From: an uncultured Helicobacteraceae bacterium
Lineage (GTDB): Bacteria > Campylobacterota > Campylobacteria > Campylobacterales > Helicobacteraceae
Reading direction: 5' to 3'
Assembly (NCBI GenBank): GCA_944323885.1
Contig: CALUUD010000001.1
Coordinates: forward strand, 186,001-250,000
Length of the DNA stretch: 64,000 nucleotides
The notes beneath the pieces were generated by a model. The model was not told where the DNA came from. It worked only from the letters and a program-made list of their open reading frames with translations, and ran no database searches. Shown one piece after another: positions 28,045 through 39,616 of this stretch; within the stretch, counting starts at the first letter, position 1; each line of letters starts with the position of its first letter. A program made the position numbers and the translations under genes.

Positions 28045-28121
28045 GGACCTTTAGCTCAGCTGGTTAGAGCTATCGGCTCATAACCGATAGGTCGCAGGTT
28101 CGAGTCCTGCAAGGTCCACCA
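28045..28121 (+). tRNA. tRNA with CAU anticodon (tRNA-Ile2 likely, or elongator tRNA-Met)
   Basis: A 77-base cloverleaf with encoded CCA: acceptor GGACCTT/AAGGTCC (28045-28051 with 28111-28117), D-arm AGCTCAGCTGGTTAGAGCT, anticodon stem TATCGG/CCGATA with loop CTCATAA (anticodon 28079-28081), and T-arm GCAGGTTCGAGTCCTGC. A GG-CC first acceptor pair excludes the initiator type. The GGACCTT acceptor resembles lysidine-modified tRNA-Ile2 of other bacteria as I remember it, so that identity is preferred, but Met cannot be excluded without comparing all CAU tRNAs in the genome. The accessory region starts at its 3' end. Confidence 0.95.
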
Positions 28122-28446
28122 CAATTACAGTATTTTCCCAAAAAATATATACTTCAGAGTTTAATACTTCTCAAAAGTAACTAAAAAATAACAGATTTTA
28201 TACTAAAGCTTATGCTCTTACTTTTTCAGTAAATACAATATAAAATACATTACCCAAATATAACCAATATGGAGATGGATTCTAACCATTTCAAGCCCAT
28301 ACAAACATAGTTTTTTCTTGCTTTTTTGGCTGTTTTAATATTCCTCAATATAGAGTTGAGTAAAAAATTTACCTAGTTTCACTATTGCTTATCTACTAAA
28401 CTTGTAGTTTCAAAACTAGAGGATATAAAGAAAAAATATTTGCATA

Positions 28447-28820
28447 TTAACAATTTACTCCAATACTAAAAAACTTATTACCATCACACTCTTTGCTAAA
28501 GTAATCCAAAACCTAGCTAACTCCTTCTCTAATCCCTAAGAATGCAGTACATCCTTGAGGTAAAGAACCAAATCTTAAATTCTTTTGTAATACTTAAAAT
28601 GTCGCTTTATTGATGATATTAATTTTTTCATCCTTTAATTACATTGGTTGAATATAAAAAAACTCTAAACAAAATACCATCAGCGTATGAAGCAAAAGTC
28701 AAAGGAAATATTTTGACATAGCATTCCTTATACTTCTCATTGACCTTTTTTCTCTAAACCCTGAAGACTTTTAGAAGTCACATAAATGTAAAAATTTATC
28801 ACACACCCTCAAAGATATTC
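28447..28820 (-). pseudogene. decayed coding remnant of unknown family
   Basis: The region 28122-29362 has no intact gene. On the minus strand, coding-like pieces can be read between stops and frameshifts: INFYIYVTSKSLQGLEKK, then in a second frame VNEKYKECYVKIFPLTFASY, then LRFGSLPQGCTAFLGIREG, an in-frame TAG, and VLDYFSKECDGNKFFSIGVN before a TAA at 28447-28449. The frame changes at an AAAAAAGG run. Composition and residue pattern are clearly protein-like, but I do not recognise the family. It may be the C-terminal part of the remnant at 28841-29123. From 28122 to 28446 only a further short minus-strand open stretch (about 28260-28380) is seen. Confidence 0.5.
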
Positions 28821-28840
28821 CTGATAGTTTCTTTGTTAGC

Positions 28841-29123
28841 TTATTCAATCTTTCGGACTTCCAATTCTACCTCATAGCCATTGGCGTAATCAATAAGCAG
28901 AGAATTGCCTTCTTCACTGATTGCTACTTCAAAGCTTGGATATTCCTCGTTTGTTTGAGAGAAGAGGATTGTGGGGTTTTCTTCTCATCATCTAAGAAGA
29001 TAAAGCATTATCCTCGTTTTTATCCACCAAAAAGAGATAATTAGTGTCTGTAATGACTGACTTGATTGCTTCAATTTGCTCTATAAGATCCGCAGAATTG
29101 AAAACTTAGATTTTTTCTAGCAT
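28841..29123 (-). pseudogene. decayed coding remnant, N-terminal part
   Basis: Minus-strand remnant starting with ATG at 29123 (MLEKI then a stop), continuing in a second frame as NSADLIEQIEAIKSVITDTN and LFLVDKNEDNALSS, a stop, and in a third frame as LFSQTNEEYPSFEVAISEEG and NSLLIDYANGYEVELEVRKI before a stop at 28841. At least two frameshifts or stops interrupt it, so it cannot make a full protein. No family is recognised. Its position between the tRNA and the restriction-modification genes marks it as debris of an older insertion. Confidence 0.5.
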
Positions 29124-29317
29124 ATTTACTCATTGAATCAAATTATATAGCCTATTTAACGATACTTAAAGGTTGTAATATATACATGAGCTAGGATGAA
29201 AAAGTTTATGATAAGAAAAATAGTCAAAATGACATATATTGACAACAATAATTTTATATACAATATACAAAATTCCATTCACCTGCAATCTACCTTGTAA
29301 AAGATTAGAAAAGAACT

Positions 29318-29323
29318 TATAAT
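29318..29323 (+). promoter_or_regulatory. -10 box upstream of mod
   Basis: A consensus TATAAT lies 39 bases before the mod ATG; the gene itself has AAAGGA 7 bases before its start. No clear -35 is seen, which is normal for this group. Confidence 0.4.
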
Positions 29324-29362
29324 TTTTCACCTATTGCCAACAAAAAATCAAAGGATAATCAA

Positions 29363-31232
29363 ATGACAAAGCACAAATTGCTAGAAGATCTTAAATCGCA
29401 TTTTGAGACAATTGGAGCAATTAGAAATTTAGCTCAAGAATGCAGTCAAGAACTAATTGATTTTTTACTCAAGGATAGTCAATATAGCAATGAATACAAA
29501 AGTAGGTTTTTCTTGGAGTCTGCGGGAATAATTATTTTTAAGCAACAAGACTTTCTTACATTTTTAGATTTAAAAAATTTGGGTGGAAGCTTCACTTCAT
29601 ATGCAAGTAAAATTGGATTATCATCTAAGACTAGAGGCTTGCTAAAAGCATCTAATGAAGTTGTATTGAACTTTGCTTACAAAGACGGGGTTTTAAAAGG
29701 TGGACAAAGCAAAGATGAGGAAAAACAAGACGAAATCTTTTTTAATGAAATTTTAGCAAAAGATGAGATTGATACACTTTTTGAACCAAAAGCCCTTCAT
29801 AATTTTGAGGCCATAGGCGATGAAAGCTTGGAAAAACTTATCGCAGAAGAATCAAACATCCTCATAAAAGGCAACAATCTCTTAGCACTTCACTCTCTCA
29901 AAAAGAAATACCAAGGTAAAGTGAAACTCATCTATATTGATCCTCCCTACAATACGGGTGGCGATAGCTTCAAATATAACGATAAGTTTAATCACTCCAC
30001 TTGGCTTACTTTTATGAAAAATCGACTTGAAATAGCTAGGGAGTTTTTAAGGGATGATGGTGTGATTTTTGTTCAATGTGATGATAATGAACAAGCTTAT
30101 CTCAAAGTATTGATGGATGAGATTTTTGGGAGAGAAAAATTTATTGGTTGTTTTATGTGGATGAAAACTTCCACACCTCCAAGCTTAAGCAGATATATAA
30201 GAAGAAAATTGGAATATATACTTTGCTTTAAAAAAAATGAACTACTTGGATTGAATGGTGGTGTTACTAATGGTGGTGATATGCCATTGCTAAACTCTGG
30301 AAACTCTATTGATACTCTCATTTTTCCTCCAAATTCTGTACGTTTTTCTACACCAGATGGCACATATCACCCCGAAGTCAAAGATAGGGTGGAATTGCTT
30401 GAGGAACTTTTGGTGAAAGACGGTAGAAATGCAACACCTTTAAAACTGAAGGGAGAGTTTAAATGGAAGCAAGATACACTATTGGATGAGATAGAGAATG
30501 GAACAGATTTTATTATCAAAACCGAAAAATTTGCCATTAGATACATGCGAGATGGTGAACGAATTAAGCGTCCATCAAACCTTATTTCAAAAAGAGAATG
30601 TGGAGTTGGAACAAACGAGGATGCACAAAAAGAATTGTTGGACTTATTTGGAATGAAGGTATTTGACTATCCCAAGCCCGAAAACCTATCGTCTTAATAT
30701 AATAGAGATGGTTACTCAACAAAACGACCTTGTTATGGATTTCTTTGCGGGTAGTGGAACCACTCTTGCCGTTGCTCACAAAATGGGTAGAAAATGGATT
30801 GGAATTGAGCAAATGGACTACATCCAAGACATCACAAAAGAAAGATTGAAAAAAGTTATTGATGGCGAACAAGGGGGTATTAGCAAGGCAGTAGAATGGA
30901 AAGGTGGGGGTAGCTTTGTGTATGCAGAGCTTATGCCTTTTAATGCAATATATCGAGAGAGAATTGAAGCCTCACAAGATGAAAAAGAATTGGAGGCAAT
31001 TTACAAAGATTTGGAAGAAAAAGCCTTTTTGGACTATCGCGTAGATTTACAAGAGATTCTTGCAGATCAAGACTTCAAAAATATGTCTCTTGAGGATAAG
31101 AAAGAAACCTTGTGTCTAATATTGGATGAGAATATGGACTATGTTCCCCTCGGAGATATTGAAGATAAAACTTATGGTATTGATGAAGATACAATAAGAC
31201 TAAACAAAATGTTTTATGGGGAAGGGCAATGA
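29363..31232 (+). pseudogene. mod: type III DNA methyltransferase (Mod), split by one frameshift
   Basis: Modification and recognition subunit of a type III restriction system, an adenine-N6 methyltransferase of the beta class. The first part (29363-30697, 444 residues) carries the catalytic motif IDPPYNTGGDSFKYND and the target-recognition region; the second (30663-31232) carries the SAM-binding motif DFFAGSGTTLAVAHKMGRKW. Together they make the expected gene of about 620 codons, but the frame changes by one base between KPENL and IIEMVTQQ (about 30690-30705). No repeat tract occurs there, so this is not the usual phase-variation switch. Loss of the FxGxG motif from the first product should destroy activity unless the shift is a sequencing error. 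It overlaps res by 4 bp. Confidence 0.88.
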
Positions 31233-33774
31233 GGAAGCTTTGTGAAAAACTTGAGGGGGCATTAGAATACGCAGATGTAGAGATCCCTAGCCATATTATT
31301 GATAATCTAAGCAAGGAGCTAAGAGTCTATCAAGAAACTGCACTCAAGCACTATTTGCTCCAGCGCAAAAACCCTCAAACAAATCACTTGATGTTTAATA
31401 TGGCAACAGGGAGCGGAAAAACTCTTATGATGGCTTCTTTGATTTTGGATTGCTATCAGAGGGGATATAGAGATTTTATTTTCTTTGTTGATAGAAAACA
31501 AATTGTTGAAAAAACAAAAGCAAATTTTACAGAAAAAAGTTCTAGCAAATATCTTTTTAAAGAACAAATCATCATTAACAGTTCAAAAGTTGATGTAAAT
31601 ACTATTAAAACATTTGATGAAAGCCAAGAGGACTGTATCAATATTCTTTTCACAACCATTCAATCTCTCGCACCCATGCTTAAGATTGATGAAGAAAATT
31701 CTATTTCCCTTGAAGATTTCAAGGACAGAAAGATTGTTTTTCTTGCGGATGAAGCCCATCACCTCAATAGTGATACCAAAAAGAAATCATCAACACAAGA
31801 ACAAGAGGCCAAGGACGATGGATGGGAAACAGTTGTTCAAAAAGCCTTTAAGAGCCATCCTAATAATCTATTGTTTGAATTCACTGCAACAATCCCGCAA
31901 GAAAAAAATGTTTTAGAGAAATATCAAGATAAGATCGTTTTTGAATATGATCTTGCAAAATTCTGTAAAGATGGCTACTCAAAGCGAATCTTTGTAATGA
32001 AATATGAAAATAACACATTACAAGTTCGTTTCTTGGGGGCGATTCTTATGAGCTTATTTAGAGAGTTATTGGCTCAAGAATATGGAATATTTATAAAGCC
32101 TGTTGTATTGTTTAAAAGTGAGCTAACCAAAGATTCAAACACTAATAGAGAGCTTTTTATCGAATTTTTGGAAAACTTAGATACAGATCAAATTCAAGAC
32201 TTCTACAAAAATATCAACCCTAGTGAGAGTGAATTTTTATCAAAAAGCCATTCTTTTTTCAAAAAAAAGTTTGGTGAAAACTACTTGAGTAATATTGCAA
32301 GAAGCCTCAAAAACAACTTCAAAAATAGCTTTATCATTAACACAAATGATGATAGTGAGCTAGAGAAAAATCAATTTCTTCTCAACACACTTGAAGATCC
32401 ATCAAATGATATAAGGGTCATTTTTACTGTTGAAAAACTTAATGAGGGCTGGGATGTACTTAATCTATTTGATATTGTTCGACTTGGATCTCAATCTACA
32501 ACAAAGATAGCCACCAAAGAAGTGCAACTCATCGGTAGAGGAGCAAGATATTGTCCATTTGAAAGCAGTAAAGAGGAATACAGATTTGATCCTGACTTTA
32601 TGTTTAAGCGAAAATTTGATGCTGATTGCAATAATGATCTAAGCATTCTAGAGCGTTTAACTTATCACACACTCAATGATGTCGAGTTCATTAGAAAACT
32701 TAATGAGGGAATGATAAATCAAGGACTTTTACCAGATGATCCAAAACAAAGGATTGATTTGGTTCCCAACAAGAAACTAAAACACATCATTGAAAATAAT
32801 CAGATCTATTACGCAAAGAATGAGCGAATCCGAAAAGAAAAATTGCTTAACTACCAAATCTCTGCTAACAAAATAATCCATGAGATAAAAAGCTTGTTGT
32901 GCCACATATTTCAAAAGGAGTTAAAGAGAGTGAGGAGAATTTCGAAAAAATCAAAGAGGATAGTAATTTTCAAAATTACGGCGAAATTGGAAAAATTATC
33001 CCCTCAAAATATCTTCTTAAGGCAATGAATATGCTTGGATTGAACTTTCAAGATTTAAATGAGAATTTTTCTTTTGATAGCAAGGAGCAATTTATTAAAG
33101 AATTTTTGAATGGAATTACAATCCGTTTCTCAAAACAACAAGAGTTTAATGCACAGAATTGCTTGGCTATGGCTATTTATGTCTTGGAGAACTTCAAATC
33201 AATTAAACAGAGTATTAGAAGAGAATATGAGGTTACAGATTTTAGAACACATCGCTTAATTTTAGGGCAACGCATAATTTTTAGAGATGAAGATAAGATT
33301 GTAGAGAAAGACTATGCTTGGCTTTTTTACAATACATTCTCTAAAGATAGCGATCTTGAACTAGAGTTTCTTGACTTTGTTGAAGCAAACAAAAAGAATA
33401 TTGATGAGAAATTTTCTCAATGGTTTATTGTGAGAAACGATGGTTTTTTGGAATTTAAGCTTTACGATAACCGCACTGATATGCCAAGCTACGGTGAGGG
33501 CTTTGAGCCTGATTTTATATTCTTTGGGAAGCAGAGAAATGAAGAAAAAGACTTTATGAGTATTGAATGCTTTATTGAAGCCAAGGGAGAGCATTTAGTA
33601 GAGAAAGACAAATGGAAAGAAGACTTTTTGGCTACCATCAACAACACAGAACATTTGGTAAAAATAAACGACAAGCTCACTCTACGCTCACTCCCATTTT
33701 TTAGATGCAAAATTAAAAGCCATGATGCAAATACAAGGTTTGAAGATGCTTTCAAAAACTTCATTGAGAGATAA
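31229..33774 (+). pseudogene. res: type III restriction endonuclease (Res), split by one frameshift
   Basis: Restriction subunit: a superfamily 2 helicase/translocase plus nuclease. The first reading frame (31229-33028) has Walker A MATGSGKT, DEAD-box-like LADEAHH, FTATIPQ and the motif VI region VQLIGRGARYCPF. The second frame (readable from 32899 to 33774) has the PD-(D/E)xK nuclease EPDFIFFGK...IECFIEAKG. The frames join near 32890-32905 (EIKSL to PHISKG) by a one-base loss, after which the first frame runs about 40 nonsense residues to a stop. The truncated product keeps the motor but lacks the nuclease. Total length fits a normal Res of about 845 residues. Confidence 0.88.
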
Positions 33775-33785
33775 AAGCATATTTT

Positions 33786-33805
33786 CAATGGAGTTGCTCC
33801 CATTG
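33786..33805 (+). terminator. possible hairpin between res and the Hachiman-like pair
   Basis: CAATGGAG-TTG-CTCCCATTG can fold into an 8-bp stem with one bulged C, followed by TTAAAAAATC rather than a clean U-tract. It lies 11 bases after the res stop. A TATAAA at 33818-33823 just beyond could serve as -10 box for the next gene, so the two systems may be transcribed separately. Confidence 0.35.
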
Positions 33806-33860
33806 TTAAAAAATCAGTATAAAATATAAAGATATTTTTTAGAAATACAAATAAAGAGAA

Positions 33861-34814
33861 ATGGAATACAAATTGAAGAATACCTTTACCTCATTTGACT
33901 ATGACAATATTGATTTTGAAGTTCTTTTTGATAATCTAATTGAAAACAAAGATTCATACATGCTTCTCTCTTTAATCAATGATTTTGAAAGTGGCATGTG
34001 GAAAACTGATGATTTTACAGACTTTATGCTAAGCAATATGGCAGAAACTGCTCTCACTTTTAAAGAAAGAGAGGCACTTGGTGAAAAAGCTTCAAACAAT
34101 ATTAGAACATGTTGCAAGAGGATAGCCACAATACAAAAAAATGATACTAGCAAGAACAAAGGAGAGGGAGGAGAGTTTGGCGAAGCTTTTTTACATGGCA
34201 TACTCAAAAAATATTACAAAGCCTTCCCCATCAATCCCAAAATTTTCTACAAACAAAACATAAATGACAATCCAAAAGGTGCTGATAGCGTTCATATAAC
34301 ACAAGACAATGAGGGCAATTTTCATCTTTGGCTTGGCGAATCAAAGTTTTATACAAACTTATCAAGTGCTATTTCAAAAGCCGTTCAGTCTATTGAAGAC
34401 CTTTTCAGTGATGAAAAACTAAAAAAAGAAAAAAGTCTAATTATGGGGATTAGTGATTTGAGGCAATATGCAGAGAAAAATAATCTTCTTGACAATGAAA
34501 AATATCAAGACTTAGAAAAAATTCTTAAATATAAAACTTCTCTTGATGAATTAAAAAAGATACTCCATATTCCAATATCGATTATTTATGAATGTAAAAA
34601 TACTCAAAACACACAAGAAATTTCAGAAGAATACAAAGAAAATATTAAAAATTTTCATTATGCAGAAGCAAAAAATATTAAAACAAAACTAAATCAAGCA
34701 TTAAGTGGAGTTTATGGAATCAATAATGTGAAATTCCATGTGATACTCTTCCCAATCCCCAACAAACACGAAGCTATGGAAAAGCTAACAAAAGTAATTA
34801 AGGCATACTCATGA
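33861..34814 (+). CDS. HamA/AbpA-like DUF1837 nuclease of a Hachiman-type defence system
   Basis: A 317-residue cytoplasmic protein with the pattern of DUF1837 proteins: an N-terminal part, a conserved GEGGEFGEAFLHGIL helix (residues 101-115), then KGADSVHI (Asp142) and FHLWLGESKFY with Glu160 and Lys162, the arrangement of a PD-(D/E)xK-type nuclease site. The HamA protein of Hachiman systems is a DNase held in check by its helicase partner until phage infection. Here the stop overlaps the helicase gene ATG (ATGA), as expected for an obligate pair. The catalytic residues look intact. AbpA of the AbpAB system is related and an equally good name. Confidence 0.78.
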   Translation: MEYKLKNTFTSFDYDNIDFEVLFDNLIENKDSYMLLSLINDFESGMWKTDDFTDFMLSNMAETALTFKEREALGEKASNNIRTCCKRIATIQKNDTSKNKGEGGEFGEAFLHGILKKYYKAFPINPKIFYKQNINDNPKGADSVHITQDNEGNFHLWLGESKFYTNLSSAISKAVQSIEDLFSDEKLKKEKSLIMGISDLRQYAEKNNLLDNEKYQDLEKILKYKTSLDELKKILHIPISIIYECKNTQNTQEISEEYKENIKNFHYAEAKNIKTKLNQALSGVYGINNVKFHVILFPIPNKHEAMEKLTKVIKAYS

Positions 34815-36922
34815 CAAATGAAGAAATTTTTGAAAAATGCGTAGAAATTTATCATCTTCCAACAGATAATGAAAAAACAGAAAAACTATATCCTCTCCTC
34901 CAAGAACTCAAAGATAAAAATATAGAAGACTATCCCTTTGTTCTTAATCACTTGATTAGAGAACTTGGACTATATCCCTATATGAGTGGAGAAAACATTA
35001 TTTTTGAAGATAGATTTGCTAGAGAATATTTTACAGAAGATGTCGGAGAGAAACAACCTTGTGTCTTGCATAGAGAACAAGCAAGAATCTTGCATAAGCT
35101 ACTTAAAGGGGAAAATCTTGCAGTATCTGCTCCTACAAGTTTTGGGGAAAGCTTTGTCATTGATGCACTTATTGCTATCAAAAAACCAAAAAATATTTTA
35201 ATCATTGTTCCAACCCTCTCCTTAATGGATGAAATGAGAAGAAAAATTACTAGAAAATTTAGTAACACATATCGCATCATCACACAAACAGAAGAAAAAA
35301 TACAAAAAAACTATAGACATATTCTTATATTTCCTGCGGAAAGAGCCAGTCAATATTTAAGCGACTTAAGCAATGAGGGGTTGGATCTTTTTATACTTGA
35401 TGAATTTTATAAAATTACTAATCATGCAAATAACTCGGATAAAAGAGTTTATATCCTACAAAATGTCGTTCATAAAATCAAAAAAATTGCAAAACAAACT
35501 TATTTTTTGTGTCCAAATATTTCAGAAATAACTGAAAGCAAGAAAACGAATTTTCTTGAAAATATGGAAAAAATTACATTGGATTTTAAAACTGTTGCAT
35601 TAAATATTTTTGACTACGCCAAGATTAATAAAGATAGTAAGTTTCAAAAACTTCAAGAGATTTTGGGGAAATGCAAAAATGATAAGAATCTCATATACTT
35701 TAAAAGTAAGAAAGAACTTAAAAAACAATATGAGAAACTTGGAATATCATCGAGCAATAAAGAAAATCAAGTACTACAAGCATTTGGTACATGGATTGGA
35801 CACCATTACTCTGATGATTGGGATTTTTGTCAATATATTTCTTTTGGATTTGGACAGCACCATGCCGATCTTCATCGTTTTATTCAACAAATACAAATTA
35901 AACTCTATGAAGAAATCCCAAGCTTCAACAATATGCTGACTACAACATCTCTAATTGAGGGTGTAAATACATCTGCAAAAAATGTCATCTTGTGGGACAA
36001 TTATGTTGCAACTAATAAAATGACAAGTTTCACATATAAAAATATCATAGGCAGAAGTGGAAGAATGTTTCGATATTTTGTAGGCAATATCTATTTGCTT
36101 GCAGAAAAGCCTAATGAAGAACAAGAAAAAATGATGATTGAAGCTGAAGATGAATTCCTATATAGAAAAGAACAAGGAGAATGGCAAACAGAAAAACAAA
36201 AGGATGCCGAAACAATCTTAAAAGAGAAATATGGATCAGATAAATTAGCTTTAATAAAAGAAAAAATTACAAACTATGAAATACTCATGTCAATTGAAGA
36301 AATTTCATCTTTAGTTAAGCAAGACAAATTTGTGGAATATGTCAATACTCTCAAATATTTAAATGGAGATAGCCAAGGTTTTAAAAAAGCTTCAATCTTA
36401 TATTGCAAACTTTTGTCAAGGCTGATAAAAAGTGGCACACAAGGACTTGATAAAATATACCTCACAGAAATAATCAAATCTTTTAGTCAAAATTACAAGA
36501 AAAATATTCGTGAGATTGCAAATGGGTTAAATATCGATATTTATACTTATTGTGCATTAGAAAAAAATATTGTCTATGAAGGGAGCAAATTTTTAAATGA
36601 TTTTAATAATCTTCAAAAAATTCTTTTTCGCGATGAAAGTATAGATATTTCCTCATTTACCGTTAAAATGTCCCATGCATTTTTGCCAAAAAATATATTT
36701 TACCTTGAAGAATGGGGATTGCCAAGAATGGTAAGTAAAAAGATTCATCAATCAGGGGTTATTAATCTTGAAGACGATAACATTCCTTTTGAAAATATCA
36801 TTACCAAATTTAAGACAAAGATTGACAAAGCTTTCCTAATCAATACTCTCAAAAACAAAGGAAGTTTTTTTGAATTTGATGATCAGTTTATTAAGCACTT
36901 CTATGAAGGATTAGGAATTTAG
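34811..36922 (+). CDS. HamB/AbpB-like superfamily 2 helicase with an altered Walker A
   Basis: A 703-residue helicase partner of the DUF1837 protein. Motif I is SAPTSFGES (residues 106-114): the position of the Walker A lysine is Glu113 (GAA at 35147-35149), one base change from AAA. Motif II reads ILDEFYKI (DEFY rather than DEAH), motif V TTSLIEGVNTSAKN and motif VI IIGRSGRMFR (near residue 414) are well kept. In Hachiman/AbpAB systems the helicase senses DNA and restrains or releases the nuclease; the lysine is needed for ATP binding in P-loop enzymes, so this copy is probably impaired. The reading frame is otherwise open and full length. Confidence 0.8.
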   Translation: MTNEEIFEKCVEIYHLPTDNEKTEKLYPLLQELKDKNIEDYPFVLNHLIRELGLYPYMSGENIIFEDRFAREYFTEDVGEKQPCVLHREQARILHKLLKGENLAVSAPTSFGESFVIDALIAIKKPKNILIIVPTLSLMDEMRRKITRKFSNTYRIITQTEEKIQKNYRHILIFPAERASQYLSDLSNEGLDLFILDEFYKITNHANNSDKRVYILQNVVHKIKKIAKQTYFLCPNISEITESKKTNFLENMEKITLDFKTVALNIFDYAKINKDSKFQKLQEILGKCKNDKNLIYFKSKKELKKQYEKLGISSSNKENQVLQAFGTWIGHHYSDDWDFCQYISFGFGQHHADLHRFIQQIQIKLYEEIPSFNNMLTTTSLIEGVNTSAKNVILWDNYVATNKMTSFTYKNIIGRSGRMFRYFVGNIYLLAEKPNEEQEKMMIEAEDEFLYRKEQGEWQTEKQKDAETILKEKYGSDKLALIKEKITNYEILMSIEEISSLVKQDKFVEYVNTLKYLNGDSQGFKKASILYCKLLSRLIKSGTQGLDKIYLTEIIKSFSQNYKKNIREIANGLNIDIYTYCALEKNIVYEGSKFLNDFNNLQKILFRDESIDISSFTVKMSHAFLPKNIFYLEEWGLPRMVSKKIHQSGVINLEDDNIPFENIITKFKTKIDKAFLINTLKNKGSFFEFDDQFIKHFYEGLGI

Positions 36923-37431
36923 TCTGTATTCTTTTATTTCCCCATCTTTCTTCTTTCAAAACTAAGACGTACATAGTTTTCATAGATTTTTTAAAAAGAT
37001 TTGGTTGCACAGTTCTATTGTCATCAAATGTATTTTTGAAATTTGTAAGACCACTTAATTTTACTTAAAATCAATAATGCAAAAGATTGGGTAAAACTGG
37101 GCAAAGTCTTTGCCAAACCTACATCTCCCTCCACTGCGCTTATAGAAGCTAATTGGGTAAATTGGGTAGTAGAAGTCCAAGATCTTTTCTATTTTCCTAG
37201 TCTTAAAGAAAAAAGAGAAGATGTAAATTAGAGTATAGAAAAGTAGAAGAATAGAAATAATTTTCACTTCCATGGGCTTATTTTACCCAATACATTCAAC
37301 TCACCTATCCTCAGGGGGATGAAGTTAGATAAAGTCTTTACCTAGCTCTGCCCTACTCTATCTTGATTTCTCTTACTTCTAAAGATAATCAACCATTGCA
37401 TCAGTTCTCTTCTCTCTTGTAATCTCACCGA
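36923..37431. other. gene-free stretch with degraded coding fragments
   Basis: No intact gene is seen. On the minus strand (about 36935-37060) SGLTNFKNTFDDNRTVQPNL can be read, continuing after a frame change in a poly-A run as KIYENYVRLSFERRKMGK before a stop, a convincing C-terminus. On the plus strand (about 37072-37230) NNAKDWVKLGKVFAKPTSPS and ANWVNWVVEVQDLFYFPSL are readable up to a TAG; WVKLGKV is reminiscent of type I HsdS repeats, but this is weak. A 15-base palindrome GGCAAAGTCTTTGCC (37100-37114) lies within that piece. These are remains of genes replaced or eroded at the island end. Confidence 0.5.
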
Positions 37432-37719
37432 ATGACTACAGGAAGCTTTCACTATAGCAAAATGCTTGAAATAGATTTTAAAACTTTTTCTATCAGAACA
37501 ATGAAAACAAGATGGGGGAGTTGCAAGATTGACAAAGCTCATATTACCTTAAATCTTGAGCTTATCAAAAAATCTAAAAAAGCCATAGAATATGTAATCT
37601 TGCATGAATTGGCCCATCTAAAATATCCGTATCACAATCAAGCATTTTATAACTTTTTAGATTTATATATGCCTGATTGGAAAAAGATAAAACTAGAAAT
37701 CCTTGAAAATAATAACTAA
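37432..37719 (+). pseudogene. truncated DUF45/YgjP-like zinc metallopeptidase
   Basis: The 95-codon frame matches the C-terminal half of DUF45 (M48-like, YgjP/SprT-type) proteins: RTMKTRWGSCKIDKAHITLN, then the zinc motif VILHELAHLKYPYHNQAF and MPDWKKIKLEIL. Intact family members have about 220-250 residues, so roughly 130 N-terminal residues are missing and the sequence just upstream does not encode them. In many genomes this gene neighbours type I restriction genes, so it may be the last remnant of such a locus. It ends 1 bp before the convergent heme-binding-like gene, the first core gene after the island. Confidence 0.65.
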
Positions 37720-37720
37720 T

Positions 37721-38206
37721 TTACTCCCCTAAAAACATTTGAATACTATCAATACCAACTTGAGCACATTTCTCATCTAAATGACCCCCTGGAGCTCCAC
37801 CTACACCTACACCACCAACAACTATATCATCAAATTTTATTGGCAATCCTCCGCCTAAAAATACAAAATTATCATTAAGATTTATAAGTCCTTCTGGTGC
37901 CTTTCCCTCTGCAATATTTTGAGCAATATTTGCTGTAGAATTTTTCATTGATGCAGCAGTAAATGCTTTCCTAAAGCTTGCTTGCACAGTATGAGGACCA
38001 CTTTCTTCATTTCTAGCTACTGCTAAAATTACTCCCTTATTATCTACCACAGTTACACTTACATTATAACCATCATTTTTACATTGTTTCATTGCTTCAT
38101 TTGCAATCTTGACTGCTAGCTCTCCTGTAAGAATTGGCATTTGAGGCAATACAGCAAATAATAAATTGGATAAACAAAAACTTATTAAAATTAAAAACTT
38201 AGTCAT
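37721..38206 (-). CDS. secreted GlcG/HbpS-family protein
   Basis: A 161-residue protein with a signal peptide (residues 1-18, ILISFCLSNLLFA) and the GlcG/HbpS (DUF336) fold: VTVVDNKGVILAVARN, the central SFRKAFTAASMKNST segment and the glycine-rich core FLGGGLPIKF followed by VVGGVGVGGAPGGHLDEKCA. HbpS-type members bind haem or cobalamin and act in iron or stress sensing; others have unknown function. With the leader it should be periplasmic. It is monocistronic, convergent with the island end and divergent from the gene at 38444. Confidence 0.82.
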   Translation of the reverse strand: MTKFLILISFCLSNLLFAVLPQMPILTGELAVKIANEAMKQCKNDGYNVSVTVVDNKGVILAVARNEESGPHTVQASFRKAFTAASMKNSTANIAQNIAEGKAPEGLINLNDNFVFLGGGLPIKFDDIVVGGVGVGGAPGGHLDEKCAQVGIDSIQMFLGE

Positions 38207-38236
38207 TTATATCCTTATTATGTAAGATAAACAAAC

Positions 38237-38242
38237 ATTATA
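38237..38242 (-). promoter_or_regulatory. -10 box of the GlcG/HbpS-like gene
   Basis: TATAAT on the minus strand, 31 bases upstream of the start at 38206, in an AT-rich divergent intergenic region of 237 bp. AAGGA precedes the ATG. Confidence 0.45.
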
Positions 38243-38443
38243 AAGCAATTTTTTTGATTTGCAATATTTATTCAATACTTTTTAAAAAATGTGTTCATTT
38301 TGTTGCAAAACTAATACAGCTTGTATCTTTTATAGTATTTGTGGCAAAATTGCATCACCCATACCATATAATAAAAATACATTTTCTAAGTATTACAAGA
38401 TTCTATAAGTCTTGGCAAAGCTTATTATTTAGCAAGGTAAGAA

Positions 38444-39616
38444 ATGAATAAAATAATCCTTTTGTTAATTAGTTTTTTTATAAACATTAATGCTAATATC
38501 ATTGAATTATCTCCGCTTAGTGCAATCATAAAAGATGATAATATAAAAGATGCTTTAATAACGATAAATCCAAAAAGCAATAAAGAAAAACCATTTACAT
38601 ATAAAACAACAAATACAACAATCTCAAAATATGGCGGAATACCTATATTTGGCTTATATGAAGATTTTAATAATAAAATTGATATAGAGTATCAATTAAA
38701 CAACAAAACAAAAAAAGATACTTATTTTTTGCAAACAAAAAAAGTAACAGATAAAAAAATAAAAATTCTAAGCAATGATGAAAAATTTGATAATAGACTT
38801 TATCTTGTTATTGATGAAGATTCTGCATTTATGATAGATATCATGGGTAATATAAGATGGTTTGCAAATATCGATAAAACAAGTTTTGTTGAAAAGCCTA
38901 ATAGTAAACTATTTATAATAAATAACAAAGCAATTGATATTGTAAATGGTAAAATATTTACGATTAATACAAAAGATTCTACTAGAATCTTAGGTATAAA
39001 TGATAATATTTTTACAATAGATAAAAGCATCATAACACTAGTCAATAAAGATAATAAAATCATACAAAAATGGACATTTCCATTTGAAATTAACACATTT
39101 AATAATATCTCAAGCCTAGATTATAGTGATGCACTATTAGTAAGTTATAATGATTCTATTATTAAATTAAATAAAAAAAGCAACATAGTATGGATTTTTG
39201 GTGGCAATAGCAATGTATTTAGATTAGTTGATGAAACAGGAAGTAAAATACTATGTGATACCTGTGAACTAAAGAATGTTAAAAATGCACAAAAAATAAG
39301 GTTTTTAAGCATTAAAGATAGAATCTATATAATAACATTTGATAATAGCATAAATGCAAAAGTACAAATACATAAATTAGATGAAAGACTTTTGACAAAT
39401 GAGATTCTGTGGGAATATCAGATAAAAGATGAGGTATTAAATGGAACAGCATTATATAAAGAAGACTTTCACTCTATTTTTATTAATTACAAAGATGTAA
39501 ATGGAAATTTAAATATATCAGAATTTATATGGGGACAAAATACACCAATAATAAATATTGATATAGAAAATGCCACATTTGCAATTCCATTTAATTTTGA
39601 TAACTTTTTGCAGTAA
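38444..39616 (+). CDS. secreted beta-propeller-like protein, possibly aryl-sulfate sulfotransferase-related
   Basis: A 390-residue protein with a signal peptide (LLLISFFININA), an N-terminal beta domain ending SKYGGIPIFGLYEDFNNKIDIEY and then blade-like repeats (YLVIDEDSAFMIDIMGNIRWF, IITLVNKDNKIIQKWTFPFE, DSIIKLNKKSNIVWIFGGN). The early part recalls the N-terminal domain of periplasmic arylsulfate sulfotransferase AssT, and the repeats its propeller. However, it is about 200 residues shorter than AssT and I cannot point to the catalytic histidine, so activity is doubtful. Two cysteines (CDTC) stand near residue 275. A -10-like TATAAG lies near 38403. Confidence 0.55.
   Translation: MNKIILLLISFFININANIIELSPLSAIIKDDNIKDALITINPKSNKEKPFTYKTTNTTISKYGGIPIFGLYEDFNNKIDIEYQLNNKTKKDTYFLQTKKVTDKKIKILSNDEKFDNRLYLVIDEDSAFMIDIMGNIRWFANIDKTSFVEKPNSKLFIINNKAIDIVNGKIFTINTKDSTRILGINDNIFTIDKSIITLVNKDNKIIQKWTFPFEINTFNNISSLDYSDALLVSYNDSIIKLNKKSNIVWIFGGNSNVFRLVDETGSKILCDTCELKNVKNAQKIRFLSIKDRIYIITFDNSINAKVQIHKLDERLLTNEILWEYQIKDEVLNGTALYKEDFHSIFINYKDVNGNLNISEFIWGQNTPIINIDIENATFAIPFNFDNFLQ

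Follow-up and report, generated by a model that had tools for sequence, protein, structure and literature searches.

The stretch of DNA analysed here (the window, 64,000 nucleotides from an uncultured Helicobacteraceae bacterium) carries a true Hachiman operon in which the helicase HamB has probably been inactivated by a missense change of its Walker A lysine to glutamate. We put at roughly three in four the probability that this is a loss-of-function allele in a decaying, horizontally gained island. Loss of function is favored because the glutamate is unique among the HamB sequences compared, the corresponding E. coli mutant, AbpB K128A, is defence-dead, and the surrounding island is decaying. 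The allele would then reflect relaxed or negative selection on Hachiman.

Both genes were matched to Hachiman by their profiles. The PADLOC models HamA1 and HamB1 hit the two proteins with E=2.4e-97 and E=1.5e-172, respectively, and Pfam identified HamB as a DEAD helicase and HamA as HamA (DUF1837) (PF08878, E=1.4e-49). The nuclease gene hamA (33861–34814, + strand; 317 aa, complete) lies directly before hamB (34811–36922, + strand) and overlaps it by four bases (34811–34814). Its D-(E)xK catalytic residues D142, E160, and K162 are present and align with those of relatives. The hamB frame runs over 703 aa with zero internal stops and encodes an SF2 Ski2-like helicase with an N-terminal helical region, as indicated by the HamB1 profile and by fold. 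The AlphaFold2 model of the window HamB (input alignment of 34 sequences, mean pLDDT 81) had as its top solved-structure match 8zue_B, the E. coli Hachiman helicase AbpB (Foldseek E=3.3e-21), with a VIA-align Z of 28.2 and an rmsd of 3.5 over 588 residues. The E. coli system (HamAB/AbpAB, PDB 8zue) has in common with the window the hamA-hamB operon, the Ski2-like HamB, the N-terminal helices, and the motif DEFYK, whereas the two helicases are 23% identical over the structural alignment and differ at Walker A, with Lys128 in AbpB and glutamate in the window. Fold matching also found E. coli ECOR31 HamAB (8vxa), of the same nuclease-helicase two-component mechanism family, although its HamB differs in its 1139-residue chain in the structure, its DEGH motif II, and its distant sequence. 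The window operon is genuine Hachiman (HamAB/AbpAB) by descent, and the PADLOC and fold matches bear out the Hachiman/AbpAB assignment in a preliminary description of this DNA.

What the window HamB lacks is the Walker A lysine of Hachiman helicases, which is present in all other loci examined. Its motif I (residues 107–114; 35129–35152, + strand) reads APTSFGES, within SAPTSFGESF at residues 106–115, and Glu113 (codon GAA, 35147–35149, + strand) stands where relatives all have lysine, encoded by AAA or AAG. In the phmmer alignment, E113 falls onto Lys128 of E. coli AbpB. Motif II (DEFYK, residues 197–201; 35399–35413, + strand) and motif VI (GRSGRM, residues 414–419; 36050–36067, + strand) are intact, and the protein keeps D197/E198 of motif II, E383 of motif V, and R415/R418 of motif VI. 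The preliminary description was exact as to the residue, codon, and coordinates of this substitution, and it had correctly found motifs V and VI and the partner nuclease site to be intact. A true P-loop elsewhere in HamB was ruled out by the alignment of relatives and by the predicted model, in which motif I forms a normal P-loop (strand 103–107, loop, helix 114–124).

HamB relatives were collected from searches of 59 to 397 genomes each, from 80 loci in genome_contigs, and from IMG/VR; scanning genome_contigs with a single sequence returned zero relatives, and an alignment query was needed to find them. Motif I is spanned by 118 other locus rows, some of which are one place fetched twice, and the deduplicated full-length set comprises 85 relatives. 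The Walker A column is lysine in 118/118 of these rows, including the 85 distinct full-length proteins (AAA in 88 rows, AAG in 30), and glutamate in two rows, both of them the window itself. The closest HamB proteins, about 44–46% identical to that of the window, are those of Helicobacter muridarum (L045/G094) and of the Campylobacter-like genomes G163 and G198. They share its group in the HamB tree (SH-aLRT 97) and, unlike the window with its glutamate, combine GKS with an intact HamA.

These counts bear on whether HamB-E113 could be a functional variant, a clamp or DNA-state sensor that works independently of nucleotide and keeps HamA under control without ATP. Such a protein would account for the complete hamA and hamB frames, the intact HamA site, and the other intact helicase motifs, and HamAB has been reported to degrade plasmid even without added ATP when SSB was absent (PMC12278908). 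However, a hypothetical ATP-independent HamB subfamily, with a non-lysine residue recurring in a clade, is represented in 0/118 other locus rows, and the motifs that serve in using ATP (II, V, and VI) remain, as though inherited from an ATPase. The defence-dead phenotype of the equivalent AbpB lysine mutant (PMC10732053) and the decaying surroundings also speak against a functional variant, which we regard as highly improbable. Even less credible is a purely DNA-binding Hachiman in which HamB-E113 has been retained as an ATP-independent regulator holding or sensing for HamA. The preliminary description had offered two readings, an inactivated copy or a nucleotide-independent inhibitor or sensor, and had proposed looking for Glu113 in a clade of HamB homologues. 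No such recurrence was seen in the 118 rows, which leaves the inhibitor or sensor unsupported, and the uniqueness of the glutamate, the K128A phenotype, and the island decay favor the inactivated copy.

A different concern is that the codon may be a consensus error in the assembly, in which case the real residue would be lysine and the system may work. One base decides the matter, K113E being a one-base change at hamB codon 113. The window sequence GGGGAAAGC differs from GGGAAAAGC of some relatives by one base, at a homopolymer boundary only, equivalent to a boundary shift between GGGG followed by AAA and GGG followed by AAAA. Homopolymer boundaries are error-prone sites for some sequencing methods. 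The genome searches found no second copy or close strain of the window hamB for comparison, and the finding was chosen for its oddness, which favors errors. Against this, the window's long core genes have unbroken open frames, GKT or GKS stands in the remaining helicase P-loops detected in the source genome, the frameshifts in the neighboring restriction-modification (R-M) genes lie away from long homopolymers, and the signs of relaxed constraint in HamA and HamB, described below, are independent of the base at codon 113. We therefore consider an assembly error unlikely. Searches of plasmids and phages returned distant HamB only and no close DNA copy, and a 35-base pattern, exact except that both bases were accepted at the codon, had zero matches in viral_contigs. 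A second intact hamB in the source genome was ruled out by the single match there.

If the codon is real, its expected effect can be drawn from published mutants. In a working Hachiman, as published, HamA is held by HamB, and ATP-driven movement of HamB on single-stranded or broken DNA activates the HamA nuclease. Glutamate places a negative charge at the phosphate-binding position, and a Glu113 HamB would lose both the proper binding of ATP phosphates and ATP hydrolysis, with HamA then silent within the complex. E. coli AbpB K128A, like D208A and E209A, lost T4 defence when paired with AbpA, and T4 grew normally on lawns of cells carrying AbpA and AbpB K128A (PMC10732053). Defence was also lost in HamAB-D431A, uncoupling mutations at the HamA-HamB interface left cells viable, and DNA-damage activation of Hachiman requires both catalytic activities (PMC12278908). 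By analogy with AbpB K128A, ATP-dependent HamA activation and phage defence would be lost in the window system, and E113 HamB is predicted to be inert, its partner HamA remaining silent. From K128A and HamB D431A together, we infer that the window Hachiman would provide neither defence nor killing. The extrapolation runs from Lys-to-Ala in AbpB to Lys-to-Glu in the window, the effect of Lys-to-Glu in HamB itself being predicted by analogy. As a broken copy, the operon would carry little mechanistic weight: it would be a naturally occurring equivalent of the Walker A mutant made in the laboratory and would agree with HamA being harmless unless driven by HamB. It also serves as a warning that profile-based defence annotation (here PADLOC, both genes with E below 1e-96) can count a system as present even when it is catalytically dead.

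The preliminary description had further argued that an uncontrolled HamA could be toxic, making the survival of an intact nuclease frame notable. The viability of published helicase-dead and uncoupled mutants leaves this argument unsupported. Moreover, three other genomes have a broken hamB adjoining a hamA frame (G115, L053, and L102, the HamA frame of L102 being shorter, at 266 aa), so surprise at the intact hamA frame is unfounded. In L053 (Pseudoduganella flava) and L102 (a Serratia MAG), hamB lies in two frames next to hamA; these are candidate natural losses or assembly errors. The reading frames of both hamA and hamB are complete in the window, suggesting either that the lesion is recent or that the proteins are still of some use.

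Beyond codon 113, both proteins depart from their families at conserved positions. Where the other sequences are at least 97% conserved, the window HamB differs at 10 of 115 columns, more than any other of the 86 sequences (the next two differ at 6, the majority at 0), and the window HamA at 7 of 46, the highest count among 83 sequences, while D142, E160, and K162 are kept. The terminal branch of the window HamB is the longest in the tree, with 1.03 changes per column where the median is 0.093, and its distances to outgroups are about 0.4–0.5 above those of its nearest relatives. Genome-wide fast evolution as the sole cause was ruled out by tyrS of the same genome, which is without acceleration, although the host rate may contribute, infB being long-branched across the whole genus. 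Since the further HamB changes are mostly conservative and some of the divergence may have arisen before the operon entered the source genome, the divergence of HamA and HamB is taken as supporting, not decisive, evidence of relaxed constraint.

The operon sits in an island of about 10.3 kb (28122–38443) that follows a tRNA-Met gene (28045–28121, + strand) at its left edge. Two sister species of the same genus (G004 and G003) lack it: there the gene found at 38444 in the window comes directly after the tRNA. The G+C content of 28122–37719 is 31.6% compared with 28.1% elsewhere in the window, exceeding that of any equal-sized stretch outside. The island ends show no convincing attachment-site repeats, and no integrase was found. 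Upstream of hamA, a type III R-M system is split by frameshifts outside long homopolymers in both subunits: the methylase gene mod (29363–31232, + strand; frames 29363–30697 and 30663–31232) near 30.68 kb, and the restriction subunit gene res (31229–33774, + strand; frames 31229–33028 and 32899–33774) near 32.9 kb, where relatives have a single frame of about 846–862 codons. Downstream of hamB, the last 40% of a YgjP-like metallopeptidase gene is left as a C-terminal remnant (37432–37719, + strand; profile positions 122–203 of 207). Within the R-M and Hachiman set, hamA alone is without a visible lesion. The island was most likely gained horizontally and is now decaying. Scraps of another decayed gene lie at 28844–29105 (− strand), and a complete HbpS-like gene of the haem-degrading family occupies 37721–38206 (− strand) inside the right end.

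Lesions were also found in related Hachiman loci. Four of the six close Helicobacteraceae loci carry one, all different, compared with 0/14 in other Campylobacterota by the same criteria (Fisher p=0.003, in a small sample and with a test picked after the data were seen). Natural inactivation in Helicobacteraceae is therefore unremarkable; the literature yielded nothing specific about Hachiman being lost in nature or about the Hachiman of Helicobacter. Besides hamB K113E of the window, hamB of G115 (L213, 2114–12357) has a frameshift near residue 400 and is interrupted over about 8 kb by prophage-like genes, named by eye as terminase-like and lysozyme-like, with hamA intact. In G112 (L005), a TGA replaces the conserved Trp157 codon of hamA, and in G027 (L041/L003, Helicobacter sp. 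TUL), hamA has a one-base deletion about 20 bases upstream of the Trp157 codon; hamB is intact in both.

Four different lesions in six loci could mean that silencing is selected, the missense being favored because an active Hachiman kills on DNA damage or incoming DNA, with helicase or nuclease mutations recurrently selected in Helicobacteraceae. Hachiman does sensitise cells to DNA-damaging drugs (PMC12278908). The sample is small and the test post hoc, however, and neutral decay after the need was lost predicts the same lesions, making selected silencing quite improbable; it departs from the preferred reading, a loss-of-function allele in a decaying island, in the cause of loss only. The lesions seen in most of this handful of close Helicobacteraceae loci nonetheless offer a lead on the cost of genome-integrity sensors. 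The hamA lesions of G112 and G027 fall within about 20 bases of each other, near the active site.
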